Origin: Candidatus Symbiobacter mobilis CR
GTDB taxonomy: Bacteria > Pseudomonadota > Gammaproteobacteria > Burkholderiales > Burkholderiaceae_C
Length of the DNA stretch: 64,000 nt
Reading direction: 5' to 3'
Assembly: GCF_000477435.1 (NCBI RefSeq)
Contig: NC_022576.1
Span: 1,860,001 to 1,924,000, forward strand
The position numbers and the translations under genes were made by a program. A model generated the notes under the pieces. The model searched no databases and was not told the origin of the DNA. It saw nothing but the letters and a program-made list of their open reading frames with translations. This document shows, piece after piece, positions 17,921 to 58,100 of the stretch (positions are counted from its first letter, which is position 1; each line of letters opens with the position of its first letter).

Positions 17921-20518
17921 ATGGCTTGGGGAACATGGAACCCACGCCAGGCGCTGGCCATCGACTGCGCCGTCGCAGTCCTAGGCGCCCTGGCAGTGGC
18001 GTCGGTGCTGGGCATCGAATTTCTGCTTTGCGGCAATCTCCCCACTGGGGGGGACACCGCTTCGCATCTGTTGTACGTCTGGACGTTCGTCCACGAACTG
18101 CTCCCCCGTGGGTACCTCACGGCGTGGATGCCGGAGGTGTTCGGAGGCTTTCCCTTCCTCTCCTACTACTTTCCCTTGCCGTTCGTGGCCATAGCCGGGC
18201 TGGCTGCGGTGCTGCCGTTCGCGCAAGCCATGAAACTGGGAATGTTCGCTGCGGCGATGGCCTTGCCCGCCGCAGCATGGTGGGGCAGCGTGCGGTTGCT
18301 GGGAATGCCCCGGCGCGTTGCAATCTGGGGGGTGTTGGGCATCCTGCCTTTTCTGTGGCAGGAGCAGCATTCGATTTGGGGCGGCAATCTGCTGTCCACC
18401 CTCGCTGGCGAATTTGCCTACGGTTACGGTGCCTTGTTTGCGGTGCTCACACTATGCGCATGGCAGCGCGCCATAGCGACAGAACGGCACTGGTGGCTGG
18501 TGGCTGCGGTGCTCGAAGTCGCCACAGGCGCCTCGCACGGCTTTGCGCTGCTGGTGACGGGGTTTGCGACGACGGCATACCTGTTCGATGCCCCCCGGTT
18601 CCTGCGCAATTTGCGCCTGCTCGTGCTGGGGCATGGGCTTGCATTCCTGCTGCTTGGCGGGTGGTTGTGGCCGATGATGGAAATGCACGCCCTGACAGTA
18701 CCCAACGATGCGTTTTTCGAGGTGCGCCAGTGGCGGGAATTGTTGCCAGCAGGCATGGAGCCTGTCGTCGGAGGAGGGCTGTTTGCCGCAATGGTGCTGC
18801 TGGCCTCGGCGCTATTGCCCGGCGCAGGGCACAGGTTTGCGCAGTCGGGAACGGATGCGCTCCGGCACGTGGCCTTTTTTGCTGTATCAACCATGCTCGC
18901 TGCGGTGGGCTTTCTGGCAGCAGGATTGGTGGGGCTGGCCAACATCCGTTTTTTTCCTTTCGTATGGTTGCTGGGTGGCTTGGCTTGCGGGTGGCTATGG
19001 GGGTATGCCTGTATGCACGTGGCGCAAGCGCTGCCCGCTGCAATACGGTGGGGATGGCATGTGCTGGGCCTTGCCGCAGCAGTGGCGTTCATCGGGCACG
19101 TGGCTGTCGGCATCGCCGTCGCCCCGGACTGGGGGTTGTGGAACCACAGCGGGCTGGAAGCCAAGCCGCAGTGGAACCGCTTGTCAACCCTGTTCCCGGC
19201 GATGTCCGGCCCCCCAGATGGCCCCCGGCTGCTGTTCGAGCACGACCCCGCCAACCACGATCTAGGCTCGACCCGCGTGCTCGAAGCGCTGCCGATGTTC
19301 TTGGGCGGGCGCCCGGTGCTCGAAGGGCTGTACATGGAATCTGCCCTGCTAGGCCCGGCGATCTACCAGCTCCAGAGCGAGGTATCCCGGCATCCTTCGT
19401 CCCCGTTGGCACGCTTTCCCAGCGCAAGCATGGATCTGGAATTGGCAGCCGAACACATGCGGTTCCTGTACGCCAACGATGTGCTCGTCCGGCATCCCGA
19501 GACTGTCTCTGCCTTTGCGGCCAGCCCCCTGTTCACTCCGGTGACCAGCGCTGCCCCTTTCCATGTCTTTCGGGTGCGTGACTTCCATACCCATCTCGTC
19601 GATCTGGTCGATCATGGTGACCAGGTATTGCGTTGGGAAAGCCGACGCCGATGGATGGAAAACGCCTTCGCGTGGTTCCGTTCACGCAGCCGGTTTGCGC
19701 GGGAATTGCCGGTGTTCCACGACGGTGTTCCCCCCACTCTTGCCACCGCTGCACCCGATGCACGGATACACGATATCCGGCTCGACAGGCACCGCATCGC
19801 GTGGAAGACCCATGCCGTCGGCAGTGCGCACCTGCTGCGGGTGGCGTGGCATCCGCGTTGGCAACTGGCTACCCGGGGGGAACTGTTCCTCGCCGGGCCG
19901 GGCCTGATGCTCGTCGTCCCACAGGAAGCGAGCGTAGTCCTCGAATACGGACACACCCCCATCGGCATCGCGGGCATGGTAGGCACCGCGCTAGGGCTGG
20001 CGGGGTTGGCATGGGCAATCTTCGCGCAGCGGCGCCAGCGTGTGCAGCACGCACCCCAGCCCTGCCTAGCGCCCAGTGGCTACTGGCCGCGTGGGTGGGT
20101 GGCAATGTTGTGGCCCTTGCTCCTCGTCGTACTGGGGGTGACGCTGCACGTCCACAACCCCGAGCGCCTCTACGCCAAGGCATGGGTCGCGATGCGCGCC
20201 CAACAGTTTCAGCAGGCAGCCGATGTGTTTGACAAAGCCTTTGCCCTGCGCCGAGGGGATGCCAAGCAGGAGGAAGCGCTGTTCTGGGCAGCCAAGGCTG
20301 CCGAACAGGCTGGGCTGCCTGCGCGTGCGATCAAGCGGTACCGCCTGCTGGTGCGGGACTTCCACGGATATTGGCTTCCGGAATCGCTCTACACCCTGTC
20401 CACCCTCGAAGCCCAGGCAGGGCGCACAGAGCAGGCTATCCCCTTGCGCCATCGGCTGCGGCAGGAATATCCGCACAACCGCTGGACACAGCGGATGGAG
20501 CAGGAGCTAGGACAGTGA
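17921..20518 (+). CDS. Large polytopic membrane protein of the PTPS_related type with a TPR-like C-terminus
   Basis: 865-residue inner-membrane protein. The N-terminal half has roughly ten hydrophobic helices; the first periplasmic loop contains GGDTASHLLYVWTF and FPFLSYYFPLPF, matching what I recall of the '6-pyruvoyl-tetrahydropterin synthase related; membrane protein' family, which is GT-C-glycosyltransferase-like and not a true synthase. A soluble central region follows, then another helix pair (near residues 685-705 and 725-745), and a C-terminal ~100 residues of TPR-like helices (FQQAADVFDKAFALRRGD...). It overlaps the GtrA-like gene by four bases. A role in transfer of lipid-linked sugar is inferred from family and neighbour only. 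Confidence 0.7.
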   Translation: MAWGTWNPRQALAIDCAVAVLGALAVASVLGIEFLLCGNLPTGGDTASHLLYVWTFVHELLPRGYLTAWMPEVFGGFPFLSYYFPLPFVAIAGLAAVLPFAQAMKLGMFAAAMALPAAAWWGSVRLLGMPRRVAIWGVLGILPFLWQEQHSIWGGNLLSTLAGEFAYGYGALFAVLTLCAWQRAIATERHWWLVAAVLEVATGASHGFALLVTGFATTAYLFDAPRFLRNLRLLVLGHGLAFLLLGGWLWPMMEMHALTVPNDAFFEVRQWRELLPAGMEPVVGGGLFAAMVLLASALLPGAGHRFAQSGTDALRHVAFFAVSTMLAAVGFLAAGLVGLANIRFFPFVWLLGGLACGWLWGYACMHVAQALPAAIRWGWHVLGLAAAVAFIGHVAVGIAVAPDWGLWNHSGLEAKPQWNRLSTLFPAMSGPPDGPRLLFEHDPANHDLGSTRVLEALPMFLGGRPVLEGLYMESALLGPAIYQLQSEVSRHPSSPLARFPSASMDLELAAEHMRFLYANDVLVRHPETVSAFAASPLFTPVTSAAPFHVFRVRDFHTHLVDLVDHGDQVLRWESRRRWMENAFAWFRSRSRFARELPVFHDGVPPTLATAAPDARIHDIRLDRHRIAWKTHAVGSAHLLRVAWHPRWQLATRGELFLAGPGLMLVVPQEASVVLEYGHTPIGIAGMVGTALGLAGLAWAIFAQRRQRVQHAPQPCLAPSGYWPRGWVAMLWPLLLVVLGVTLHVHNPERLYAKAWVAMRAQQFQQAADVFDKAFALRRGDAKQEEALFWAAKAAEQAGLPARAIKRYRLLVRDFHGYWLPESLYTLSTLEAQAGRTEQAIPLRHRLRQEYPHNRWTQRMEQELGQ

Positions 20519-20967
20519 GGGCAGTGATCGGATGGTGTGGCCGCCGCGCCCCATGGATCCAGCAGTTCGTGCGCTATGGTCTCGTTGGGGTCGGCGCGCT
20601 GGGGGTGGATGTAGGCGCCTTCACGCTGGCTCGGTATGGGGGGGCCGATCTCGTCACGGCCAATGTGCTGGGGCGGTTGCTGGGCGCGCTCGCTGCTTTT
20701 GCGGCGAACTATGCATGGACATTCGCGCTGCATGCCCATCGTGCCCCCATGCTGCGCTGCGGTGGGCGGTACGTCGTGTTGTGGGGGGCAGCCACGGTGC
20801 TCTCCACCTTGCTGCTGCACGCGCTGCTGGCCCTCGGCGTGCAGGAAACGGTGGGAAAGGTACTGGTCGAAGCGGCGATGCCGATACTCAACTTCGTCGC
20901 GGCGCGGTACTGGGTATTCCGTCAGCAGGGGATGCCGCCCGAGGGCACTGCTGGCCGCATCGCGTAG
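20515..20967 (+). CDS. GtrA-like membrane protein
   Basis: Four-helix membrane protein of the GtrA/DPMS-like family, thought to help flip undecaprenyl-phosphate-linked sugars. From the GTG at 20515 it has 150 residues: QQFVRYGLVGVGALGVDVGAFTLA (helix 1), LGRLLGALAAFAANYAWTF (helix 2), VVLWGAATVLSTLLLHALLA (helix 3) and a C-terminal helix ending FVAARYWVFRQQG. The FVRYGLVG start and N(F/Y)xxxRxWVF end are family hallmarks. The GTG overlaps the upstream stop (GTGA), indicating an operon; a second GTG at 20524 is also possible. An extended frame to 20371 lies over the upstream gene and is rejected. Confidence 0.85.
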   Translation: MRAVIGWCGRRAPWIQQFVRYGLVGVGALGVDVGAFTLARYGGADLVTANVLGRLLGALAAFAANYAWTFALHAHRAPMLRCGGRYVVLWGAATVLSTLLLHALLALGVQETVGKVLVEAAMPILNFVAARYWVFRQQGMPPEGTAGRIA

Positions 20968-20981
20968 GCGCTCCCCATCAC

Positions 20982-21026
20982 GGCCATGACTTTGCACAGG
21001 CGCACTGAATCAGAAAAGTCATGGCC
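20982..21026. other. 12-bp perfect inverted repeat after the GtrA-like gene
   Basis: GGCCATGACTTT (20982-20993) is exactly complementary to AAAGTCATGGCC (21015-21026) across 21 bases. It lacks a T-tract but could act as a transcript-end hairpin for the 17126-20967 operon, and it marks the left border of the intron/cassette region. Confidence 0.6.
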
Positions 21027-21032
21027 ATTCCC

Positions 21033-21401
21033 TCACCCCCCAGCCCCTATCCCGCTGGGCGCTTGGTGTGCATTGCGGCCTGGTCGAAAGCCGTAGCTCG
21101 ATTCCGAAAAGGTCGGGTCGAATATCGGCGTGAGCACCTGGGCGATGGCCTGTTGGATCACCCGATCCATGATGGTGGGGATGCCCAGCAGGCGTTTGCC
21201 GCCACCATGCTTGGGTATTTCTACCCTGCGCACGGCCTGCGGCTGGTATCGCCCTTCTCGGATTTGCTGCCGCACGGCTGGCCAGTGTGCGCGTGCATGG
21301 GTGGGAAAGTCTTCCATGGTCACGCCGTCATCCATTCCCACCGCACGCGGTGCAGATCTCCCCAGGTAAGAACGCAAACTTGCTGTGCATAAACGCCGCA
21401 T
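21033..21401 (-). pseudogene. Group II intron reverse transcriptase, N-terminal fragment
   Basis: 122-residue open frame starting MRRLCTASLRSYLG. It contains the RT-0/RT-1 region (VRRVEIPKHGGGKRLLGIPT, IMDRVIQQAIAQVLTPIF) and the start of RT-2 (DPTFSESSYGFRPGRNAH), then loses homology after about residue 112. The YADD active site, maturase and DNA-binding parts are absent, so it cannot be functional. Confidence 0.85.
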
Positions 21402-21641
21402 TTACCCTAAGCGCCAAACCGATGGGCTTTGCTGTCCTGTGCCAGCTCGCCTCGGCACTCTGGGCCTTCTATGCGGTTTCTGTTCGTCGTCTCGCACTTT
21501 TGCACTCGGGCTTCCTCCAGACTACTTCTCGCGAAATAGCCCTTGCCGTCGGCTAGTGATTACTATTGCTCACGTTGAGTCCAATTCGGTTCTCCCACAG
21601 GGGACTTCCACCCCATCAGTTCGCGCCCATGCTGGGCGCAC
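21058..21641 (-). mobile_element. Group II intron copy 1 (class C-attC-like), 3'-truncated
   Basis: Read on the minus strand, the element starts with GTGCGCCCAGCATGGGCGCG at 21641, a fitting 5' end for a group II intron (GTGYG consensus). It continues through a ~240-nt leader into the start of the intron reverse transcriptase. The element is broken at about 21058, inside the RT, so the catalytic RNA domains V-VI are missing. Its 5' neighbour is an attC-like hairpin at 21642-21702, the class of target used by IIC-attC introns. It runs antisense to the cassette genes, as expected for insertion into the attC bottom strand. Confidence 0.8.
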
Positions 21642-21702
21642 ACTTGGCAGTCAACCGGACCTGCGCAAAAAGCCGCGCAGGCCGCTCACTTCTACGTTAG
21701 GC
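21642..21702 (+). other. attC-like recombination site, interrupted by intron copy 1
   Basis: On the plus strand CGG-A-CCTGCGC (21656-21666) pairs with GCGCAGG-CCG (21675-21684) leaving one unpaired A, resembling the extrahelical bases of integron attC sites. The segment ends in GTTAGGC (21696-21702), a perfect match to the R' core GTTRRRY, and begins with AC directly beside the intron end, the remainder expected of a split RYYYAAC core. It precedes the PIN-toxin cassette. Confidence 0.65.
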
Positions 21703-21758
21703 ATCCACAGTGGTTACGCCGTTGATGAAATTAGTCTCTATTATTTCAATATAATTTG

Positions 21759-22241
21759 ATGGAAGCAGTAGTTTATCTTGAGTCGTCAGTAATAAGCTAT
21801 TTGACAGCTAGACCAAACAGGGATGTTATTATTTCTGGAAGGCAAGCCATTACCATTGATTGGTGGGAAAATCAGCGACAAAGATTTGCGCTTCGCATAT
21901 CTGTTTTGGTCGAAGAAGAAATTAGTCGAGGCGATTACAAAGCCGCACAGCTTCGCCTTGAAGCTGTTGCTAACATTCCGAGCCTCACTATTTCGAGTGA
22001 AGCTGCGAGGATTTCCGAATTGCTGTTGACTAGAGGAGCCATTCCGAAAGGTAGCGAAGAAGATGCTTTGCATATCGGTATAGCCGCTGCTCAGGGTGTC
22101 GACTTTTTACTTACTTGGAACTTCAAACATATCAACAATGCAGAAACTAGAGAAGCCATTATTCAACTTGTAGAATCGTGTGGTTATAAATGTCCACAAC
22201 TATGTTCACCTGAAGAATTAGGAGGAATGTCGGATGATTAA
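21759..22241 (+). CDS. PIN-domain ribonuclease toxin (VapC-like)
   Basis: 160-residue PIN-domain protein, a predicted RNA-cleaving toxin. The N-terminus MEAVVYLESSVISYLTARP corresponds to the first acidic PIN motif, with Glu in place of the usual Asp, as in the subgroup I recall as 'YIETSVVSYL'. Further acidic positions appear in LVEEEISRGD and SEEDALHIGIAAAQGVDFLLTW. The ATG at 21759 is chosen; a TTG lies one codon upstream. The gene is markedly AT-rich relative to the chromosome and overlaps a small downstream gene by eight bases. It lies in a cassette between attC-like sites, a common setting for toxin-antitoxin pairs. Confidence 0.85.
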   Translation: MEAVVYLESSVISYLTARPNRDVIISGRQAITIDWWENQRQRFALRISVLVEEEISRGDYKAAQLRLEAVANIPSLTISSEAARISELLLTRGAIPKGSEEDALHIGIAAAQGVDFLLTWNFKHINNAETREAIIQLVESCGYKCPQLCSPEELGGMSDD

Positions 22242-22404
22242 TGATCCAATTGTTAAAGAAGTTCGTTTATACCGGCAAGAACATGCAGCGCGATATGGAA
22301 ACGATTTAAATCGAATTATCGAGGCATTTAGAAAAAAGGAACAAGAGTCAGGTCGTGTTTATTTAAACCCTGGTCCTAAGCTACTTCAAAAACAAACGAC
22401 GTAG
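22234..22404 (+). CDS. Small partner protein of the PIN toxin (putative antitoxin)
   Basis: 56-residue protein read directly from the sequence: it begins MINDPIVKEVRLYRQEHAAR and ends with a basic LLQKQTT tail. The pattern 'V-x-EVR-x-x-R-x-x-HA-x-x-Y-x-x-DL-x-x-I' matches small proteins I remember immediately following PIN genes of this subgroup. The preceding AGGAGGAATG inside the toxin gene (22219-22228) supplies a strong ribosome site. Its stop overlaps nothing; an attC core begins 13 bp later. The antitoxin role is inferred from position and size; the order toxin-then-partner is the reverse of most type II modules. Confidence 0.75.
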   Translation: MINDPIVKEVRLYRQEHAARYGNDLNRIIEAFRKKEQESGRVYLNPGPKLLQKQTT

Positions 22405-22421
22405 CAAGAAGTTCTGGCCTA

Positions 22422-23427
22422 ATCGGGTAGGCAACGGCTTCTAACCGTCGCCCCCCACACCACCCACCGTGCGGGTCCGCAGTGGGCGGTTCAACAAGTC
22501 GGCTCGCTCGACAAAGTCTTTCGCTTCCTACCCATGTACCCCTGTGCCTTGCACCACAGGTCTTTCACACTCAGCAAACCTTGCTCCTGTAACCACACGT
22601 TGGATAGGGCCTGATTGATAACCGGGGTTCTGGACATCTGCCAATAGCTTTTGCTGCTGACTCCGTGCTGAATTGCCGACTTCAGGCTTACGCCCAATGC
22701 CAACAGGTTCTTGATCTTCGTGCGCCGCCAGCGCCACTGTTTCCAGTAGCACATTCGGATGCGCCTTCTGATCCACTCGTCCAGTTCGGGTACCGGGCGG
22801 TAATACTGGCTGATGCCAAAGTAGCCCGTCCACCCCCGCAAGTATTGCCCCAGTTTCTTCAGCCGGTATTCCATGGAAACGCCCCAGTTTCGCGCAGTCA
22901 GCTTCTTGATGCGGTGCTTGAAATCCGCCAGGGCCTTATCAGTCCAGCGTACTTTCTTGCCCTGGATCGTGAAGCCCAGAAAGGCGCTTTCGCTCATCGG
23001 TGCCACCTTGCTTTTGGCCAGCACCCCGGCGCGCAGGTAGCGCCCAAATTTGCTGTCGCACGGCTGGCCAGTGTGCGCGTGCATGGGTGGGGAAGCCTTC
23101 CATGGTCACGCCGTCATCCATTCGCACCGCACGCGGTGCAGATATCCCCAGGTAAGAACGCAAACTTTCTGTGCGCAAACGCCGCATTTACCCTAAGCGC
23201 CAAACCGATGGGCTTTGCTGTCCTGTGCCAGCTCGCCTCGGCACTCTGGGCCTTCTATGCGGTTTCTGTTCGTCGTCTCGCACCTTTGCACTCAGGCTTC
23301 CTCCAGACTACTTCTCGCGAAGTAACCCTTGCCGTCGGCTAGTGGTTAAGATTGCTCACGGTGAGTCCAATTCGGTTCTCCCACAGGGGACTTCCACCCC
23401 ATCAGTTCGCGCCCATGCTGGGCGCAC
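22422..23427 (-). mobile_element. Group II intron copy 2, both ends intact, RT internally deleted
   Basis: The minus-strand element runs from GTGCGCCCAGCATGGG at 23427 to ...GCCTACCCGAT at 22422, about 1.0 kb. Near the 3' end the sequence AACCGCCCACTGC/GCACGGTGGGTGGT can form the domain V hairpin, followed by a domain VI-like stem with a bulged A region (GACGGTTAGAAGCCGTTG). Removing the element joins GCCTA (22417-22421) to AC (23428-23429), restoring the attC core GCCTAAC. The reverse transcriptase is deleted between its N-terminal ~45 codons and the maturase domain (junction near 23049-23056). The 3' boundary is uncertain by one base. Confidence 0.85.
22491..23084 (-). pseudogene. Group II intron maturase/X-domain fragment (copy 2)
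   Basis: 197-residue frame with the group II intron maturase-specific domain: FLGFTIQGKKVRWTDKALAD, LGQYLRGWTGYFGISQYYRP, LDEWIRRRIRMCYWKQWRW and VWLQEQGLLSVKDLW. All RT motifs are missing because of the internal deletion; a separate short frame from 23187 holds the first ~47 residues of the RT. An intact C-terminal maturase domain could in principle still be translated, but on its own it cannot drive retromobility. Confidence 0.85.
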
Positions 23428-23490
23428 ACCTTGCAGTCAAGCGGGATGCCGCGCTTACGCGCGTCGCCCCTTACTGTTGACGGTTATCTT
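23428..23490 (+). other. Remainder of the attC-like site split by intron copy 2
   Basis: CGCGC-TTAC-GCGCG (23450-23463) forms a hairpin with outer matches GTCAA (23436-23440) to TTGAC (23477-23481). With the GCCTA left of the intron it makes an R''-L''...L' arrangement. The right-hand core is not a clean GTTRRRY (nearest GTTATCT), so this end is degenerate. Belongs to the PIN-toxin cassette. Confidence 0.5.
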
Positions 23491-23530
23491 ATAAACGTTG
23501 CTTATCTTAAACGTTCGGAGGGAAAAGAAA

Positions 23531-23899
23531 ATGAAGATCAAAGTTTTAATAGTCCTCATCGCGCTATGCATTTGTACACCTGCATTCTCCAATCCATACA
23601 CGTATCGAGTGATTGAAAAACAAGACATATCGTATGGAGCAACCAAACGAATGGTCTACAGAATCTACCTCAATACTCAAACTAATCCTGATCAAACTCA
23701 AATGAAAGAAACTGCCCAGCAGATTTGGAAGGACGGCAACCAGAAATGGAAGGAATTCACAGTGTTCATGATCTTTGGAGAAATCAAGAACTTCAACTCT
23801 GGAGCCTACGGTATTGCCGAATTTACACCTTCAGGCATGAGCAGTTTTCGTATCAACGATGTTCCTCTGCAAATGCTGGAGCTTGAAAAAAAGAAATAA
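23531..23899 (+). CDS. Small secreted protein of unknown function (cassette gene)
   Basis: 122-residue protein starting MKIKVLIVLIALCICTPAFS, a clear Sec signal peptide with cleavage after AFS and mature N-terminus NPYTYR. A good ribosome site (GGAGGGAAAAG) precedes the ATG. The mature part is hydrophilic and Lys-rich, with no motif I recognise. Base composition is far more AT-rich than the flanking chromosome, and an attC-like hairpin follows within 100 bp; both support arrival as a mobile cassette. Confidence 0.7.
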   Translation: MKIKVLIVLIALCICTPAFSNPYTYRVIEKQDISYGATKRMVYRIYLNTQTNPDQTQMKETAQQIWKDGNQKWKEFTVFMIFGEIKNFNSGAYGIAEFTPSGMSSFRINDVPLQMLELEKKK

Positions 23900-23903
23900 A
23901 ATA

Positions 23904-23991
23904 ATCCGAACCAGTAGTTGGAGCCTACCAGAAAACGCCCGTCCAGTCAGGCAACGTTTATGTGCCGGGCGGCTCATCCATAACGTTAAAT
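23904..23991 (+). other. attC-like site after the first secreted-protein cassette
   Basis: CGCCCG (23936-23941) pairs with CGGGCG (23966-23971), and GAGCC (23921-23925) with GGCTC (23971-23975), with the loop in between. The segment ends in GTTAAAT (23985-23991), matching GTTRRRY. The left core (ATCCGAAC) is only an approximate RYYYAAC, so this is a candidate, not a certain attC. Confidence 0.5.
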
Positions 23992-24017
23992 AATAAAAAA
24001 ACACAAATGAGGAAAAA

Positions 24018-24338
24018 ATGAAAAAAGCAGTTATGTCGATTATTTTCATATTTGTTTTTACACCTACGGTTTTTGGTATGAGTGCGACAACCGTAGAAAA
24101 TGGATGTGCCTGTTTGTCTGAAACATGGCTTAATGATATGACGCAGTTTGTCATATCAAAAGATATGAAAAGTTTTGAAGCATATGTTAAAACAAACAAA
24201 TGCATCATCCTGAAAAGTGGATTAAAGGTAACAGTTACGAAATCTCCCGGAATGTTTGGCGGTAAGGTTGAGTTTGTGTATAATGGGATCAAATTCTGGG
24301 CAACAAGAGAATCTCTTACAAACTACAGCGCGGAATAA
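24018..24338 (+). CDS. Small secreted protein of unknown function (second cassette gene)
   Basis: 106-residue protein with the signal peptide MKKAVMSIIFIFVFTPTVFG and a mature domain containing three Cys residues (NGCACLSETW and NKCIILK). The motif pattern resembles no family I can name. It has a GAGGAAAAA ribosome site, strongly AT-rich codon use, and ends 11 bp before the intron copy 3 boundary, so that intron probably sits in this cassette's attC. Confidence 0.7.
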   Translation: MKKAVMSIIFIFVFTPTVFGMSATTVENGCACLSETWLNDMTQFVISKDMKSFEAYVKTNKCIILKSGLKVTVTKSPGMFGGKVEFVYNGIKFWATRESLTNYSAE

Positions 24339-24349
24339 CAATCAGCTAA

Positions 24350-25083
24350 ATCGGGTAGGCAACGGCTTCTAACCGTCGCCCCCCACACCACCCACCGTGC
24401 GGGTCCGCAGTGGGCGGTTCAACAAGTCGGCTCGCTCGACGATGTATTTCGCTTCATAACCAAGTAACCCTGTGCCTTGCACCACAGGTCTTTCACACTC
24501 AGCAAACCTTGCTCCTCTAGCCACGCATTGGATATCACCTGATTGATTACCGGGGTTCTGGACATCGGCTAATAGCTGTTGCTGCTGACTCCGTGCTGAA
24601 TCGCCGACTTCAGGCTTACGCCCAATGCCAGTAAGTTCTTGATCTTCGTGCGCGGCCAGCGCCACTGTTTCCAGTAGCACATTCGGATACGCCTTCTGAT
24701 CCACTCGTCCAGTTCGGGTACCGGGCGGTAATACTAGCTGATGCCAAAGTACGCCGTCCACCCCCGCAAGTATTGCCCCAGTTTCTTTAGCCGGTATTCC
24801 ATGGAAACGCCCCAGTTTCGCGCCGTCAGCTTCTTGATGCGGTGCTTGAAATCCGCCAGGGCTTTATCAGTCCAGCGTACTTTCTTGCCCTGGATCGTGA
24901 AGCCCAAAAAGGCGCATTCGCTCATCGGTGCCACTTTGCTTTTGACCAGCGCCCCGGTGCGCAGGTAGCGCCCAAATTTGCTGTCGCACGGCTGGCCAGT
25001 GTGCGCGTGCATGGGTGGGGAAGCCGTCCATGGTCACGCCGTCATCCATTCGCACCGCACGCGGTGCAGATATCCCCAGGTAA
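24350..25083 (-). mobile_element. Group II intron copy 3, 5'-truncated, same RT deletion as copy 2
   Basis: This segment aligns with 22422-23155 of copy 2 over about 735 bases without any net insertion or deletion, including the identical RT deletion junction (CAAATTTGCTGTCGCACGG). It stops at 25083, so the intron 5' end and about 270 bases of leader are lost. The maturase frame (24734-25012) is closed by an in-frame TAG where copy 2 reads CAG (FGIS followed by stop). It is therefore a dead relic. It ends nine bases before the stop of the response-regulator gene. Confidence 0.85.
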
Positions 25084-25092
25084 CCCATCTCT

Positions 25093-25722
25093 TCACACCA
25101 GCCCGTTGCGGATGGCGTAGACAGTCAGCTCGGAATTGTTCGTCAGCTTGAGTTTTTCGAGCACCCTGGCGCGGTACACACTCACAGTCTTCGGGCTGAG
25201 CATCAGCTCCTCGGCAATGTCTGCGAGGCGTTTGCCGCTGGCGATTTTGCACAGTGTTTGCAATTCGCGCTCCGATAGGCTGTCGTGCAGGCTTTCACTG
25301 GCCGGGGCGTGGAGGTGATCGACAAGCATCTGCGCCACCGCTGGCGTGACGTACTTGCGGCCTTGCGCAACGGTGCGCACGGCAGTGATCAGTTCGGCAG
25401 GATCCCCCGCCTTGTTCAGGTAGCCATGCGCACCCGCCTTGAGGCACCGCAGCGCGTACTGGTCTTCCGGATACATCGACACGATGAGGACACGCACCGG
25501 GGATTCGGCATCGCGCAGGCTGGCCAGCACCTCGATACCGTCGCGGCCGGGCATATTGATGTCGAGCACCAGCACGTCGCAATCCACCGTGCGCAACGCA
25601 CTGCGCACTTCTGCGTAACTCCCCGCTTCCGCAGTGACCTGGATGTCCACCGCTTCCTTGAGGGTGTCGCGGATCCCCCGGCGAACCATCGCATGGTCAT
25701 CGCACAAAACGACACGGATCAT
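25093..25722 (-). CDS. NarL/FixJ-family response regulator
   Basis: Two-component DNA-binding regulator of 209 residues from MIRVVLCDDHAMVRRG at 25722. The receiver domain has DD8-9, the phospho-acceptor Asp54 (VLVLDINMPG) and Lys in LNKAGDP. The C-terminal LuxR-type HTH is SLSERELQTLCKIASGKRL...LSPKTVSVYRARVLEKL. The family resemblance is closest to UvrY/GacA-like regulators. The longer frame (to 25887) overlaps the kinase region and is rejected. It lies 86 bp downstream of a HisKA_3 kinase on the same strand, its likely partner. Its 3' end touches the cassette/intron region but the protein looks complete. Confidence 0.92.
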   Translation of the reverse strand: MIRVVLCDDHAMVRRGIRDTLKEAVDIQVTAEAGSYAEVRSALRTVDCDVLVLDINMPGRDGIEVLASLRDAESPVRVLIVSMYPEDQYALRCLKAGAHGYLNKAGDPAELITAVRTVAQGRKYVTPAVAQMLVDHLHAPASESLHDSLSERELQTLCKIASGKRLADIAEELMLSPKTVSVYRARVLEKLKLTNNSELTVYAIRNGLV

Positions 25723-25808
25723 CCTGGATTCCTCAGTGGGACGCGCCCGAGTGGGCTGCTGGCATCTAGGATCATCGCTGCGTACTCCGAAATGCTGCGC
25801 GCTATGGG

Positions 25809-40917: not shown

Positions 40918-41161
40918 GTTGAGTATTTTTACTCAACGTATTGAGCAAAACTGGCAGGCTGGTTGTTCCATACAGAGCGCCCCCTATGGCCCCCGGCGGC
41001 CTGGCAGGGGCCTATGCATGAAAAAAACCCAAACCAGCAAGGCGAATTCCGCCGAAAAAACAGCGCGGCACCAAATCAAAACGCGCAACACCGCCCCCTC
41101 GGTCATGTTCGCTGGAATCAGCGGTCCCCACGTTCACCGGAATATGCAGACACTATCTACC
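40918..41161. other. Non-coding gap between the ATPase and repeat R2
   Basis: No gene is visible. The region has an AT-rich promoter-like start for the ATPase (TTGAGTA...), an A-rich patch, and at 41096-41155 the motifs GGTCATGTTCGCTGGAATC and CGTTCACCGGAATATGCA. Similar motifs occur at 39653-39705 on the other side of the ATPase gene. They recall the multiple terminal repeats of IS21-family elements, but no istA/istB genes are present. Confidence 0.4.
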
Positions 41162-41360
41162 ATGTGCATCCCCTGCTTGAGGCTGGACATATCGCGATGA
41201 CCTGGCCGGACAAACCCAACGATCCCACGCAGGTGTACCGTGCGGTGAATCTCGTGTAGATCGCAGCACGAAGTCGTGGCATTTCTGCTCGGGGCGTTTC
41301 TGCTCGTATCCATCGGCTACCCGGTACCCTGCAATGGGACGCAACAGACGAAAGGGGTTC
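41162..41360 (+). repeat. 199-bp direct repeat, right copy (R2)
   Basis: Second copy of R1. It carries a truncated C-terminal piece of the AlbA-like frame (HPLLEAGHIAMTWPDKPN...) ending at 41260, and its last bases, GACGAAAGGGGTTC, form the ribosome-site region of the phytochrome gene that starts at 41364. The phytochrome gene was therefore probably once directly downstream of the AlbA-like gene. Confidence 0.92.
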
Positions 41361-41363
41361 CCT

Positions 41364-44300
41364 ATGCCTAACCAAGACATCGCAAGCTGCGTATCGGAAC
41401 CGATCCGTTTCCCCGGCGCTATTCAACCGCATGGCGCTGTGCTGGTTCTCAATGCACGAACCTGGACCGTCGAAGCAGCCAGTGAATCCTGTTCTTCTTT
41501 ATTGGGAATAGCTCCCCAAAAGATTCTGGGCCAACATCTCCAGCATATCTTTGCAGAACCCATTCTGGACCATCTCGTACGACAGGACAATCAGGCCAAT
41601 CTTGCAACGATGCCACCGGCGATGGTTTCGCTCCAGGGAAAAACCTGGAGCATTCGCCAGCATGATGGTGGCGAAAGGTTTCTCCTTCTGGATATAGAAT
41701 CGATCAATGAAGAAGCCAACTTTACCCGATACCACTATGCATTGCGGCAGGGACTTGCCACCTTGCGAAAGCATACCCAGGTCGAATCACTGACGCGGGA
41801 AGCGGCGCAAATCATTAGAAAGATTACGGGTTTCGACCGCGTGATGATCTATCGCTTCGATGAGGCATGGAACGGCCAAGTGATTGCCGAAGCCCGCGAC
41901 GAACATATCGAACCGTATCTCGGACTGCATTTCCCTGCATCGGATATTCCTACTCCAGCACGGGAGTTGTACCAGTTCAGCACAATACGCTCGATTCCCG
42001 ATGTCCACTACACACCATCGTCGATATGGGGCCACCCTGACAAGCATTCGATCGATCTTGCAGCATCCAGCCTGCGCAGCGTATCCCCCGTCCATATCGA
42101 GTATTTGTGCAACATAGGGGTGAGCGCAACATTGGTTGGTTCATTGGTCGTGAATGATACCTTGTGGGGATTGATTTCCTGCCAGAACAAAAGCAAACCA
42201 AAATACTTCGGCGTACAGGAACGCGATGCACTGGGTTGGTTTTGTGCAGATATAGGATGCCTGCTGGAAGAAAGATTGCTTCGGAGAAAGCAGGAAATCC
42301 AGGCGGAACTGGCTTTGCGGCGTAGAACGCTGGTGGAGAAAATCCGCAAGGTGGATTTTCAGACTCTGATGCAGTCTGAGGAGAAACAAGACCTGCTTGG
42401 CGTAGTCCATGCGGATGGATTCGCGCTCCAAGTCGATGACATTGTATCGGTCATCGGTACGGTTCCCACCACGGAACAAATTCGTGCAATGCAACGATGC
42501 CGAATCGAACGCCATGGCAATAGCGCATTGTTCCATACCAACTCGATTTTCCAGGATCTGGATATTGGGCCTGTTTCGCGTGGTATTGCCGGAGCACTTT
42601 GCATATCCTTGCCGAGCACCCTACAGATGACCCTGATCTGGTTTCGGGTAGAGCGATCACAGACCATGCAATGGGGTGGAGACCCCCAACAACCCCATAC
42701 CACGGACGAAACGGGGCGCATTTCTCCCCGAAAGTCATTCGCCCAATTTTTGACGACGATCGAAGGCAAAAGCCTGCCCTGGACTACAGAAGAATTGGAT
42801 TCAGCAATAGAACTCGGCTCTCTGCTCGAAATCGAATCGCTTCGAGAACACGATGCATTTTCCCAAGCGATTCTGAATTCGATCCCGTCACACATCGCAG
42901 TCCTGAACCACCATGGCGTGATCACGGCAGTCAATGCTTCCTGGAATCGGTTCGCGCAAGAAAATGGCGCCCCCGAACTGGTGGACACAACAGTCGGCAA
43001 AAATTACAAAAATTTTTGCGCTTGCCCTGACAATACCAGTACCGCAGCTCCACCGGCATGGGAAGGCATTGATGCCGTATTACAAAGTAAGCTGAATCAC
43101 TTCACACTGGACTATCCCTGCGATTCGCCAGAAGAACAGCGCTGGTTCCGTATGAATGTATACCCATTGCTGGGGTTGCGACAAGGTGCCATTGTCGCGC
43201 ATGAAAACATCACCACCAGAAAGCTTGCGGAAATTCGGCTGGAACAATTATTGGATGAGCAAAGAGCCATTCTAAGCAGCGATCTGGTTGGAATTTTCAA
43301 AATTTACCACTCGATGACGATTGCATGGACCAATACTGCGTTGTGTACCATGCTCCGATATGCGGAAGGTGAATTGCATGGTTGCTCCATGCGCCAGTTC
43401 TATTCCAGCGATACTTCGTATGCGGATTTTTGCCAGTATGCTCTGCCAGCCATGCAAACCGGTACGACATTTCGACAGGAATTGCAATTGGTTCAAAAAA
43501 ACGGTCAGCTTGGTTGGTATGCATTGCACATGGGGTTTCTCCAGCAAGGCGGCACAGCGTTGATTGGGGTGCTGATCGACGTGTCCGCACGCATCCAGGC
43601 TGAAGCAGAACAGAAAGAAATTTTGACGAGATTACAACAAATCGCCGACCGCGTTCCAGGAGTGGTCTATACATTCCAAAGAAATCGGGATGGCCAACTC
43701 TGCTTTCCGTATATAAGCAATACTATACGAGAACTGTTCCGCATCAATCCCCACGATGTACACGATGATGCCACCAAGATTATTCAGCAAGTACACCCTG
43801 AGGACCTCGATGGATTGCATTTTTCGATAGAAAAATCTGCAAGAGAGTTATCGCTATGGAATCATGAGTTCCGTATGATCTTGCAGGATGGTAGCGAACG
43901 GTGGGTCATAGCCAATGCCATGCCCCAGCCCGATGAAAATGGGGCAATTCTATGGCATGGGTTTGCCAGCGATATTACAGATCGAAAATTGATCGAAGAA
44001 GAATTGATTTCCGCAAGGGCCGAAATCGCACTCGGCGTTTCGCGACAACGGTTGCGTGAACTGGTCGTACAAAATGAAATTGCGCGAGAACAAGAAAGAA
44101 AACATATCGCACGGGAAATTCATGACGAACTTGGGCAAGTTCTCACCGGACTACGGATGAATCTGCTGCTCATGGAAATGCGCTATTGCTCGTTGGATCC
44201 GGCATTGCCCAAATTGGTATCGGACATGAAGGACATCCTGGATCAAGGAATTCGCAATGTACGCAATGTCATCTTGTACCTGCGACCAACGACCTTGGAT

Positions 44301-44717
44301 CTCGACATCCAAAATGCCATCAGCTACTTGTGCCGTGAACATCAAAGCAACACCGATCTCACTTTCGACATCGATATTCCTGAAGAAAATATTCCCATGG
44401 ACAAAAAAACATACGTTGTAGTCTATCGGATCGTCCAGGAATCCTTGAACAACATCATCCGTCACGCGACAGCAAGCAAAGTAGCCATCACTCTCACTCT
44501 CGATGTCCAGGATACCCTGGTTGTCGAAATTTGTGACAACGGGGTTGGCTTTCGTATTGAGGAAGTCGGCATGAACAAGTCTTTTGGCTTGCTGGGCATG
44601 CATGAACGGGCCATTGCCTTGGAAGGGCGTTTGGAAATCGGCAGCACACCCATGCAAGGAACGACAATCCGACTCACCCTGCCATGGAAGCCTGCATCAC
44701 CCAAGACAGGGACTTGA
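41364..44717 (+). CDS. Bacteriophytochrome histidine kinase with extra PAS domains
   Basis: 1117-residue red/far-red photoreceptor kinase. PAS-GAF-PHY core: Cys9, the biliverdin-attachment position, in ASCVSEPIRFPGAIQPHG; GAF motif ASDIPTPARELY with Asp194; His244 in SPVHIEYLCNIGV; PHY tongue motif PRKSF near 456. The usual second His (IACHH) is replaced: the sequence reads ISCQNK with Gln274. After the core, three PAS-like regions follow (about 505-620, 630-750, 755-880), then a HisKA_3 domain (His920 in IAREIHDELGQVL) and a NarL-type ATPase (IVQESLNNIIRHA, ICDNGVGF, FGLLGMHERA). Standard BphPs lack the inserted PAS domains. It is followed 36 bp later by a NarL-type regulator. Confidence 0.92.
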   Translation: MPNQDIASCVSEPIRFPGAIQPHGAVLVLNARTWTVEAASESCSSLLGIAPQKILGQHLQHIFAEPILDHLVRQDNQANLATMPPAMVSLQGKTWSIRQHDGGERFLLLDIESINEEANFTRYHYALRQGLATLRKHTQVESLTREAAQIIRKITGFDRVMIYRFDEAWNGQVIAEARDEHIEPYLGLHFPASDIPTPARELYQFSTIRSIPDVHYTPSSIWGHPDKHSIDLAASSLRSVSPVHIEYLCNIGVSATLVGSLVVNDTLWGLISCQNKSKPKYFGVQERDALGWFCADIGCLLEERLLRRKQEIQAELALRRRTLVEKIRKVDFQTLMQSEEKQDLLGVVHADGFALQVDDIVSVIGTVPTTEQIRAMQRCRIERHGNSALFHTNSIFQDLDIGPVSRGIAGALCISLPSTLQMTLIWFRVERSQTMQWGGDPQQPHTTDETGRISPRKSFAQFLTTIEGKSLPWTTEELDSAIELGSLLEIESLREHDAFSQAILNSIPSHIAVLNHHGVITAVNASWNRFAQENGAPELVDTTVGKNYKNFCACPDNTSTAAPPAWEGIDAVLQSKLNHFTLDYPCDSPEEQRWFRMNVYPLLGLRQGAIVAHENITTRKLAEIRLEQLLDEQRAILSSDLVGIFKIYHSMTIAWTNTALCTMLRYAEGELHGCSMRQFYSSDTSYADFCQYALPAMQTGTTFRQELQLVQKNGQLGWYALHMGFLQQGGTALIGVLIDVSARIQAEAEQKEILTRLQQIADRVPGVVYTFQRNRDGQLCFPYISNTIRELFRINPHDVHDDATKIIQQVHPEDLDGLHFSIEKSARELSLWNHEFRMILQDGSERWVIANAMPQPDENGAILWHGFASDITDRKLIEEELISARAEIALGVSRQRLRELVVQNEIAREQERKHIAREIHDELGQVLTGLRMNLLLMEMRYCSLDPALPKLVSDMKDILDQGIRNVRNVILYLRPTTLDLDIQNAISYLCREHQSNTDLTFDIDIPEENIPMDKKTYVVVYRIVQESLNNIIRHATASKVAITLTLDVQDTLVVEICDNGVGFRIEEVGMNKSFGLLGMHERAIALEGRLEIGSTPMQGTTIRLTLPWKPASPKTGT

Positions 44718-44753
44718 TTTGCATTGGTCCCTATTTCCTTCCATCTAGACAAC

Positions 44754-45407
44754 ATGAGCAAGATGCAAACCAATAATATTCGCATCCTGATCGTCGATGA
44801 CCATGCGATTGTGCGCAGCGGTTTGAAAATGATTTTTGAACACGTCAGCGACTTTCAGGTTGCAGGGGAAGCCTCCAACAGCAGAGAATTGCTGGAGCAA
44901 TTGAGCAAAAATGTGTATGACATTTTGCTACTCGATATGAATATGCCCGGAATGAGTGGCGCTGAATTGATCTCGCGCATCAAAGCCTGTTATCCCTGTC
45001 TCCCTATTCTGGTATTGAGCATGTACGATGAACCCCATATTGCCATGATGGCCATCAAAGCGGGGGCATCCGGATATATCACCAAGGATTGTGACCTCGA
45101 CGTCCTGCTTCCCGCAATCCGCGCAGTATCTTCGCACCAAACCTTCATTACTCCCGGGCTGGCGGCAAAGATGGTTTTTACAGAAACGCCTTCCGCCACG
45201 TCTGCATTGCACTCCTTGTTGACAAATAGGGAAATGCAGGTATTCAAATGGCTGGTAGCCGGGCTGAGCATCAATGACATTGCCGCCACGCTCGGAATCA
45301 GCAACAAAACCGTCAGCACGCACAAAGCCAAAATGATGGAAAAGTTGCATGTGTCCAGCATCGTCGAACTGACGCGCTACGCCATCCAGCACAACATCGG
45401 CGCCTGA
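44754..45407 (+). CDS. NarL-family response regulator, partner of the phytochrome kinase
   Basis: 217-residue regulator from MSKMQTNNIRILIVDDHAIV at 44754. The receiver has the acidic pair in VDDH, phospho-acceptor Asp61 (ILLLDMNMPGMSG) and Lys in ITKDCDL. The C-terminal HTH is LLTNREMQVFKWLVAGLSI...GISNKTVSTHKAKMMEKL. It directly follows the phytochrome kinase, whose HisKA_3 domain pairs with this regulator class, so a light-driven transcription switch is the natural reading. Its targets are not visible. Confidence 0.93.
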   Translation: MSKMQTNNIRILIVDDHAIVRSGLKMIFEHVSDFQVAGEASNSRELLEQLSKNVYDILLLDMNMPGMSGAELISRIKACYPCLPILVLSMYDEPHIAMMAIKAGASGYITKDCDLDVLLPAIRAVSSHQTFITPGLAAKMVFTETPSATSALHSLLTNREMQVFKWLVAGLSINDIAATLGISNKTVSTHKAKMMEKLHVSSIVELTRYAIQHNIGA

Positions 45408-45797
45408 ATCCCCACCAGACGTTGCCGCACCCACTGCGTAACAACGCCCCTCCCTCGACAAGCCGCGCCTCAGAATTTCCTGAGGATAGGTCAGGATCGA
45501 CTGACTTTTCTGCACCTGGGCGTAGGCAGAATCTTTGCCCTTGGGACTACGCAACATTGTCCCGGCTATGCATACCTACGCAACCAGTATGCAGCAGTAC
45601 GGCATGTGGGTAGTACGACGCTGGGCCGGTTTTGCGTCAGTCCCGGTTTCTTCAGCGTGAGCAAGCGCTGCAAGCATCGCCAGGCCAAGTGGAGTGGTCC
45701 CAAACCGTTGTGCAGACGGTACGTTTGCTCCAGTCTGCAACATCGTAATTTCTCCAAGCACTATCGCAACCTGTCTGCATACTACCGCATTTTTCCT
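45408..45797. other. 390-bp gap before the GGDEF hybrid kinase
   Basis: No convincing gene. A 6-bp hairpin CCTCAG/CTGAGG (45468-45485) may end the regulator transcript. The plus frame of the following gene stays open through 45606-45797, but its residues (Arg/Cys-rich) do not look like protein from this organism. A 76-codon antisense frame (45576-45806) is also open and unrecognised. Confidence 0.5.
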
Positions 45798-49910
<4,113 letters not shown>

Positions 49911-50046
49911 GCGGCATCCTGTTTTCGGATACCGTATAGGCGCATAGGCGTGAGCGATGATGTCGATACTGGTTCAATAGATTTTTGGTTGAATTTTGGT
50001 CGTGGTACCGGGGTGCCTATACCGACCACAGAATAGGGAATATTTT

Positions 50047-55089
<5,043 letters not shown>

Positions 55090-55177: not shown

Positions 55178-58100
55178 ATGACTGCTCCCACCCTCTACCT
55201 CGGCAACACCCCCTTCCAACCCAGCCATGGCAATGTGACCGGCGATGAGATCGTCCGCGATGGGGAATCGTTTTTCCGGATCTCGCATGTCGAGCGCATG
55301 GCGCCGTTTTTCCTGACCCTGGTCAGCGACAGCGACCACTGGATGTTCCTGTCGAGCAAAGGGGGGCTGACTGCGGGGCGCAAAAGCCCGGACAACGCGC
55401 TGTTTCCCTACACCACCGACGACAAGATTCATGATTCCTCGTGGAACACGGGCAGCCGCACGGTGCTGCGCGTGACCCGTGGGGGGCGGTGCTGGCTCTG
55501 GGAACCGTTCAGCGATGCCTACCGTGGCGTGTACGCCATTGAGCGCAGTCTGGCCAAGAACATGCCCGGCAACAGGTTGGTGTTCGAGGAAAGCAATGCC
55601 GATTTGCAGTTGTCTTTCGAATACGAATGGTGTACGAGCCGGAAGTTCGGCTTCGTCCGCACTGCGCGTATCCAGTACTTCGGCGATGCCGACAGTGTGC
55701 GCATCGAAGTCCTCGACGGCGTGCAAAACCTGCTACCGGCGGGCGTATCGCGGGCAATGCAGACGCAATACAGCACGCTCGTCGATGCCTACAAAAAGAG
55801 CGAGCTAGTGACCCCCGAAAACATCGGGGTGTTCTCGCTCAGTTCGATCCCGACGGACAAGGCCGAGCCGAATGAATCCTTGGAAGCCACGGTGGCCTGG
55901 TATGTAGGCCCATTCCCCCCCACGGTGCTGCTCTCTTCCCACCAGCTCGACCTCTTCCGCAGCGGCGGGGCGGTGCAGCAGGAAGAGGCCGTGCATGGCA
56001 CGCAGGGCGCGTACTTCGTCTGCGGTGCTTTCGAGCTTGCCGCAGACGCAAGCCTGCGGTGGACGATCGTGATCGACGGGCGCAAAACCCTCGTCGATCT
56101 CTGGGAACTGAAATCGCAGCACATCAACCAAACGAGGCTGGCCAGAATCCTTGATGAAGACATCACCCACAGCACCGGCACCCTCATCGCAATGGTGGCA
56201 CGTGCGGACGGATTGCAGCAGACACAAGACTCCCGCTGCACATTGCGCCACTTCTCCAACGTGCTCTTCAACATCATGCGCGGGGGCATCTTTGAAGACC
56301 ACTACCGCATCCGCACGGGGGACTTTCTCTCCTTTCTGCAACGCCGCAACGCCGACCAACTGGCCCGCCACGGCGACACCGTGCGCTCCTGGCCCACCTG
56401 TTTGCCGTACCAGGAAGCCTTGCAACGCGCCCGTGTGGTGCAAGACCCCGACTTCGAGCGCATCTGCCACGAATACCTGCCGCTGACCTTCAGCCGCCGC
56501 CACGGCGACCCGAGCCGCCCGTGGAACCAGTTCCTGATCGACGTCGAGCGCAGCGACGGGACGCGCGTGCTGAACTACCAGGGCAATTGGCGCGACATCT
56601 TCCAGAACTGGGAAGCGCTCGCCTTTTCGTACCCCGGGTTCATCGAAAGCATGATCGCCCGCTTCGTCAACGCCTCGACGGTCGATGGGTACAACCCCTA
56701 CCGCATCCTGCGCGACGGCGTGGACTGGGAAGTGCCCGACCCGCACGACCCCTGGTCGAACATCGGCTACTGGGGGGATCACCAACTCATCTACCTGCTC
56801 AAGCTGCTCGAACTCTCGCACGCCACGCATCCGCAGCGTCTCGCGGAGCTGCTCGTCTCGCCAATCTTTTCCTACGCGGACGTTCCGTACCGCATCCGCA
56901 CCTACCGGGAGCTGTGCGCCAACCCGCAGGAAAGCATCGTCTTCGACGAAGAGCGCCATCGCTGTGTGCTTGATCGCGTCGCGGCCCTCGGCACCGACGG
57001 GCAGTTGCTCCCTGCCAAAGGGGGCGGCGTCCATCTCGTTTCCCTCACCGAAAAAATGCTGCTTTCGGTGCTGACCAAGCTCTCGAACTTCGTCATCGGC
57101 GCCGGGATTTGGATGAACACGCAGCGCCCGGAGTGGAACGACGCGAACAATGCACTCGTCGGCCACGGCGCTTCGATGGTGACGCTGTACTACTTGCGGC
57201 GGACGATCGTCTTTCTGGCGCGATTGATGGCAGACGCGCCGCACCAGCACTTTGTGCTGTCGCAAGAGGTGCATGCGCTGTACCGCGACATCCTCGCTGC
57301 GTTGACCGACCATCGCCCGATCCTCGCCACCCTTGATGACACGCCCTCCCCCACGCAGCGCAGAGCACTGCTCGACGCGCTGGGCCATGCCGGGGAGACC
57401 TACCGCAAGACGGTGTACCGCGACGGCCTGACCCACGCGGGAGACACCATCGACAAGGAAGAGCTGGCCCGGTTCTGCGAGACCGTACTAGCGTATATCG
57501 ACCACTCGATCCGCGCCAACCGGCGCGAAGATGGGCTGTACCACGCCTACAACCTGCTGGCATTCGGCCCCGGCGTGATCGACGTGCAGCATTTGTACGA
57601 GATGCTCGAAGGGCAAGTCGCCGTCCTTAGTTCGGGCTACCCCGACCCCGAGGAAACACTGCGAATCCTCCAGGCTCTGCGCAACGGCCCGCTGTACCGC
57701 GAGGACCAAAACAGCCTGATGCTCTACCCGGAACGCCGCCTGCCACGGTTTGAAGACAAAAACCAGGTGCCCCTGTCCCTGCTGGAACAAGCCCCTTGGC
57801 TGCAACGCCTGGCCGACTCTGATGGCGGGGGGATCGTCGTTCGCGATGGGTACGGCGGCTGCCACTTCCACGGCACCATGCACAACGCCAAAGTGCTGGA
57901 ACAAGCGCTACGGGCATGGAAGCACCCCACGCACCCCGCGCCGAGCGAAGAAGACATCCGCGCAGCCTGCGCCTTGTACGAAGCCGTGTTCCAGCATCGG
58001 TTTTTCACCGGACGATCAGGGACGTTCTACAAGTACGAAGGTCTGGGGTCGATCTACTGGCACATGGTCGCCAAGCTGCTGCCCGCGATCCAGGAAGTCT

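Follow-up and report, generated by a model that had tools for sequence, protein, structure and literature searches.

How did a short row of AT-rich genes, interleaved with pieces of group II introns, come to stand beside a LuxR-type regulator gene with no integron integrase gene (intI) nearby? The question is raised by a locus of Candidatus Symbiobacter mobilis CR that lies in a window of 64,000 nt (positions 1,860,001-1,924,000 of the complete 2,991,840-base genome; feature positions below are numbered within this window). Between a GtrA-family gene and the LuxR-type regulator gene, the minus strand carries three intron remnants, and the plus strand four small genes. This array is very probably a cluster of attC sites lacking an integron integrase (CALIN, a term reportedly coined by Cury and colleagues) that was invaded by group IIC-attC introns, its cassettes coming from the pool of the genome's own integron and having been stranded beside the regulator gene. 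Read directly from the DNA are the anatomy, boundaries and orientation of the array, the identity of its attC sites, the insertion point, the deletion junctions common to intron copies and the mosaic make-up of copies.

Introns of group IIC have no endonuclease and use positions behind hairpins as insertion sites; the IIC-attC kind inserts into the R'' box of the attC bottom strand (PMC7923331 and PMC4424553). Introns 1 and 2 have this placement, in R'' of the attC bottom strand and antisense to the cassettes, which supports an earlier interpretation of this DNA (the sequence-only reading) that class C-attC introns had inserted into the bottom strands of attC sites.

attC sites and the intron insertion point

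The search for attC sites used R1, a covariance model trained on nine intact attCs that lie elsewhere in this genome, outside the window, and on one attC of a class 1 integron array. R1 is distinct from the published attC model, its structure was written by hand onto the alignment, and it is not independent of the window sites, one training site being 94.5% identical over 55 nt to the first of them. In the 64 kb, R1 gave two matches only (E-values up to 10, default filters), and these directly adjoin the 5' ends of introns 1 and 2. Reference (ref) positions within introns are those of a copy elsewhere in the genome (L024:6195-7777; 1583 nt) with an open reverse transcriptase (RT) frame of 436 amino acids (aa); L-numbers name the 17 fetched stretches (350 kb, window included) in which intron copies were placed in detail. 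The features of the locus are as follows.

20371-20967, GtrA-family gene, left neighbour of the array
21060-21641, minus strand, intron remnant 1: ref 1-575, the 5' part, including the start of the RT frame; 3' half gone
21642-21702, plus strand, attC 1: R1 match at 21636-21702, 37.2 bits, E 3.6e-8; R'' end cut off by intron 1
21759-22241, plus strand, cassette 1 gene 1, VapC-like protein with a PIN domain: PF01850 14.5 bits, under the cut-off of 23.6
22234-22404, plus strand, cassette 1 gene 2, 56-aa partner, possible antitoxin: no Pfam match
22416-22421, plus strand, half R'' box (left) following cassette 1: GGCCTA, adjoining the 3' end of intron 2
22422-23427, minus strand, intron remnant 2: both ends kept, RT destroyed by internal deletions 373^723 and 752^989
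23428-23490, plus strand, attC 2: R1 match at 23429-23482, 28.9 bits, E 7.4e-6; R'' end cut off by intron 2
23531-23899, plus strand, cassette 2, 122-aa small protein with hydrophobic N terminus: DUF4875 16.2 bits, below cut-off
23985-23991, plus strand, R'-like core only: GTTAAAT, the sole feature fitting an attC at 23904-23991
24018-24338, plus strand, cassette 3, 106-aa small protein with hydrophobic N terminus: no Pfam match over cut-off
24350-25083, minus strand, intron remnant 3: 3' part, carrying both deletions of intron 2
25093-25734, minus strand, LuxR-type response regulator gene, right neighbour of the array

The R' core of attC 1 reads GTTAGGC (21696-21702). Over 55 nt, attC 1 has 94.5% identity to two other sites, one in a class 1 integron array on a Citrobacter plasmid and the other an uninterrupted sister attC in the genome itself (L021:18517-18582). 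The sister belongs to the genome's own integron and has the R'' box TCCTAAC. Because this sister shows R'' uninterrupted, the insertion point can be placed at CCAAGT^TAGG on the bottom strand, between the GT and T of R''. For intron 2, the 3' exon on the minus strand reads TAGGCC, the other half of an R'' box. Folded as free DNA, the two sites did only moderately better than their shuffles (attC 1, z-score -2.03, 5 of 200 as good; attC 2, -1.70, 14 of 200).

The sequence-only reading had proposed three attC-like hairpins, and the search with R1 bears out those at 21642-21702 and 23428-23490. The third, at 23904-23991, has no R1 match, no plasmid match and an unremarkable fold (z -0.35, 73 of 200 shuffles as good). 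With no support for an attC at this place, cassettes 2 and 3 may be a single two-gene cassette.

We propose that the introns entered by reverse splicing into the single-stranded attC bottom strand at GT/T of R'', a point that would lie behind the attC hairpin. Entry into the bottom strand would leave the introns antisense to the cassette genes and the R'' boxes split, and a split R'' would be expected to keep IntI from excising the cassettes concerned.

All three introns are of one group II family and, as previously noted, antisense to the genes. Rfam model RF02001 (group II domains D1-D4) matched intron 1 at 21371-21538 (124.4 bits) and intron 2 at 23157-23324 (129.3 bits), and RF00029 (domains D5-D6) matched introns 2 and 3 at 22422-22491 and 24350-24419 (42.1 bits each, gathering score 40) in a permissive search of the region; the faster Rfam search did not list the RF00029 matches. 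Intron ends read GTGCG...GAT, which fits the GUGYG 5' and AY 3' ends of group II ribozymes. All of these ribozyme features (ends, D1-D4 and D5-D6) are present in intron 2, and introns 1 and 3 have one half each; in comparison with the full-length copy, none of the three has a complete RT. The 5' end of intron 1 is at 21641, and that of intron 3 is lost, 10 nt from the stop codon of the regulator gene. Introns 1 and 3 are not halves of one copy, as they overlap at ref 305-373 and have different deletions. An 88-bp dispersed repeat with a hairpin (20974-21061) adjoins intron 1 and has copies, 81-84% similar, at L023:8296-8384, L021:6752-6839 and L031:12983-13059.

The AT-richness ascribed to the three plus-strand gene units was confirmed, with GC contents of 0.41, 0.41 and 0.35 compared with 0.589 for the whole window and 0.57-0.60 for the intron remnants. 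A second low-GC stretch lies at 41000-55000, mostly 0.47-0.56 per kb.

The integron, cassette relatives and intron family across the genome

The intI model TIGR02249 gave 11 matches in the genome, two of them over the cut-off; the weak matches mean little, since below-cut-off matches also occurred in 14 of 14 control genomes. The two genes are:

genome 46767-47711, minus strand, full-length intI: TIGR02249 477 bits
genome 2386950-2387603, minus strand, truncated intI: TIGR02249 over cut-off

None of the 11 matches falls in the window, where neither an intI nor an attI remnant was found, and the nearest over the cut-off is about 0.5 Mb away. The array had been called integrase-less; this holds for the window but not for the genome, whose full-length intI is adjoined by genes with intact attC sites and by the same intron family. 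Genome-wide (E up to 1; 150 of 3596 candidates scored), R1 gave at least 28 matches, and the 28 listed consist of the nine training sites, 11 sites at intron 5' ends and eight others. Within the window, the two R1 matches lie 1.7 kb apart, in keeping with the definition of a CALIN, which calls for two or more attC sites and no neighbouring intI. The truncated intI lies with several attC matches at genome 2386892-2394835 (L025), a further integron relic. The main cassette array also holds two blocks, each about 670 nt long and nearly identical to the other (L022:10187-10860 and L022:12285-12958), that resemble remnants of an attC-targeting insertion sequence, putatively of the IS1111-attC type.

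The putative VapC/PIN toxin-antitoxin pair of cassette 1 has a PIN score under the cut-off and a partner that Pfam does not recognize; two of the three plasmid relatives of the PIN gene are annotated as VapC family toxins. Five paralogues of the PIN gene lie in the 17 fetched stretches. Every one of them is in an integron cluster and close to either an attC match or the 3' end of an intron; four have a homologue of the partner beside them, and in these stretches none was found in an ordinary operon without cassette borders. The proteins of cassettes 2 and 3, called secreted in the sequence-only reading, may be so to judge from their N-terminal sequences. The cassette 2 protein has 17 homologues, one of them, at 79% identity, from a metagenome-assembled genome of another phylum (Verrucomicrobia), and the cassette 3 protein has eight, itself counted. 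The DNA of cassettes 2 and 3 had no match in the plasmids searched. To judge from sequence comparison, the attC neighbourhood of the PIN paralogues and the distant-phylum homologue of cassette 2 are marks of mobile cassettes.

Searching the genome DNA with intron 2 (40 of 81 candidates scored) returned at least 54 matches, several of them to one copy. In the fetched stretches, we placed 18 intron 5' ends and 26 intron 3' ends. An R1 attC lies directly upstream of 11 of the 18 5' ends, and 15 of the 26 3' ends continue with TRRR, for which chance would give about 0.8, or about 3 given the required first T. Two of these 15, at 894633 (L138) and 2664655 (L134), have an identical 30-nt 3' flank and are not independent; the common flank points to a putative duplicated segment. 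Among relatives of the same genus, TRRR follows six of eight placed 3' ends, and the four placed 5' ends include one with an R1 match, two without and one in a locus outside the R1 search.

Just one copy in the fetched stretches is full-length with an intact RT. RVT_1 matched four times in the genome, twice completely, and one of the complete copies (2159663-2161238) is broken up and lacks its 3' end. Several tiny derivatives of about 230-380 nt keep both ends and have lost most of the middle (L030:11295-11597, L135:8008-8388, L029:13807-14137 and L027:7381-7612).

Junction 752^989, which removes the stretch with the YADD motif, is common to six copies; close to it, introns 2 and 3 show single point differences. 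Of these six copies, five have 373^723 as well, its joint sequence identical in all five, and four of these five keep both ends, each 5' end lying at an R1 attC of different sequence and the 3' flanks differing as well. The copies at 2.44 and 2.60 Mb have a different junction in common, along with inserts of about 64 nt that are almost the same. In our reading, introns 2 and 3 are of a lineage that lost its RT, and the deleted form then reached several attC sites, perhaps by retrohoming with an RT supplied in trans, by exchange between copies, or both. A tree of intron 3' ends, made as a test for a clade of deletion copies, left 12 of 14 inner branches open.

The block at ref 200-310 exists in two unrelated forms (A and B), 51-57% identical between and 90-100% within forms, while over ref 1-200 the 21 pairs compared have identities of 91.5-97%. 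Form A occurs without 752^989 at 2156195 and with it at 56866; form B occurs without it at 2159663 and with it in introns 2 and 3 and three others. As all four combinations exist, the copies appear to have swapped sequence, whether through recombination, gene conversion or template switching; the alternative is that an identical deletion arose independently. Two unrelated forms are also seen at the N terminus of the family's RT: B, in seven copies, replaces the frame start of the full copy (L024:6398-7708), and intron 1 carries it at 21060-21401.

Several observations weigh against a CALIN invaded by IIC-attC introns. One of the three proposed attC sites fails, the R' core of attC 2 deviates from the consensus, and the 3' flank of intron 3 is TTAG rather than TRRR. 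The intron-binding site 1 (IBS1) in the window is AAGT or AGGT, neither being the reported TTGT; of the IBS1/IBS3 consensus TTGT/T, GT/T is kept. Among the placed ends, 11 of 26 3' ends are not followed by TRRR and seven of 18 5' ends have no R1 match. Of these seven, one follows a hairpin that has a T run and resembles a terminator, three are attC-like by eye and three have no such structure. The 436-aa RT of the full copy has thousands of relatives named group II RT, and its placement in class C is putative.

Origin of the array

Gene order around the regulator provides clues to how the array came to lie there. A search among relatives for an empty counterpart of the site was unsuccessful: the GtrA-like neighbour has a match in seven of 89 genomes of the genus (own included), and at 18 regulator loci in relatives neither it nor the gene before it was matched. 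In the three relatives with open reading frames listed, a convergent fliR-like gene (named by eye) directly follows the regulator gene; the DNA downstream was viewed for seven. In CR, the fliR-like gene is found at a distance of 0.64 Mb and has no adjoining intron; therefore, the array sits where gene order has changed.

We lean slightly towards an ordinary integron or array that lost its intI by deletion or rearrangement and decayed in place, the introns having arrived as in any array. The break in gene order falls exactly at the array, and a truncated intI and intI fragments occur elsewhere in the genome; against this, the window holds no trace of intI or attI. Another possibility, which we consider rather unlikely, is that the array arrived through intron homology, when intron-bearing cassette DNA recombined with a resident intron behind a chromosomal gene. 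Such recombination would account for the two same-orientation remnants, introns 1 and 3, that flank the array, and it agrees with the exchange of sequence among the genome's intron copies. Against it, the outer flanks that it predicts are illegible in the window, where both outer intron ends are lost, and no intron adjoins the displaced fliR-like gene. Because these ends are lost, decay in place and arrival by intron recombination cannot be distinguished here.

The case for intron homology gains from a locus at 1.008-1.012 Mb, the one place where we observed a cassette between an attC-sited and a terminator-sited intron. The minus-strand order is pntB, a terminator-like hairpin, an intron remnant of about 303 nt, TAGG, an antisense mgtC-like gene, an attC, an intron 5' piece, an insertion sequence, an intron 3' piece and corA (pntB, mgtC and corA named by eye). 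Relatives of the corA-like gene, with 80 loci listed, are mostly Comamonadaceae, including several Rhodoferax; 27 of the 80 have a pntB match (51-98% identity) behind corA, and the other flanks are possibly too short. The four pntB-corA loci read in detail have a CoA ligase-like and a nucleosidase-like gene (by eye) in between, neither of which, queried from one relative and with no positive control, had a match in the CR genome, although the fliR query did give one. The locus fits a recombination between intron copies that would have brought in the cassette and removed two genes. We infer that the outer 3' piece joins the 5' piece as one intron. That outer piece is diverged (84% to the reference), which counts against intron recombination there, and no intermediate was seen.

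It is very improbable that the hairpins are terminators or other palindromes and the introns ordinary terminator-targeting group IIC members: terminators are the usual targets of such introns (PMC4424553), and a copy of this family does sit behind one, but R1 matches both sites and nothing else in the 64 kb, R'' half boxes follow the intron 3' ends, and attC 1 is nearly identical to a site in a class 1 integron array.

Known systems and implications

A CALIN invaded by IIC-attC introns has relatives in print. Like introns of the S.ma.I2 type, those of CR use the R'' box of the attC bottom strand, with the cut before T, and lie antisense, others standing behind terminators (PMC7923331, PMC4424553); unlike them, the window copies are remnants, two of an RT-less lineage, and their IBS1 differs as described above. 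The CALINs of Halorhodospira halochloris and of Tanatar-5 soda lake resemble the array in having attC clusters without a nearby intI, truncated introns and toxin-antitoxin-type cassettes (PMC7923331). However, the H. halochloris introns are described as group IIB in a genome without intI, whereas those of CR are group IIC-attC in a genome with intI. Leon and Roy (2009), as cited in PMC7923331, proposed recombination between attC-sited and terminator-sited introns as a route of cassette formation. The CR genome is like their model in having one family at both kinds of site, copies that exchange sequence and a cassette between introns (at 1.01 Mb); it is unlike it in that the product is a cassette behind a chromosomal gene, known here from sequence alone, and not a new integron cassette. 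Published work (PMC7923331) thus already covers CALINs, introns that target attC, truncated introns within CALINs and the idea of recombination. The multiple copies of an RT-less lineage, the mosaics, and the cassette between introns behind a terminator go further, and we found no report of them in our searches of open-licence papers.

The locus bears on how CALINs originate and on what part introns may play in making or moving cassettes. The CR genome combines a full RT-bearing copy, many RT-less copies with traceable junctions, a full intI and an intron-flanked cassette behind a terminator; the recombination model is therefore testable by comparison with sister strains. It also holds multiple members of a single RT-less group II intron lineage, and introns of this form are said to be rare among bacteria (PMC4424553). 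Tentatively, and with considerable doubt, we suggest that mostly RT-less IIC-attC introns may act as dispersed homology that moves cassettes: an RT acting in trans would copy RT-less lineages into attC sites, after which recombination between attC-sited and terminator-sited copies would plant intron-flanked cassettes behind ordinary genes. If this is true, some CALINs would have been made by introns rather than left behind by dying integrons.

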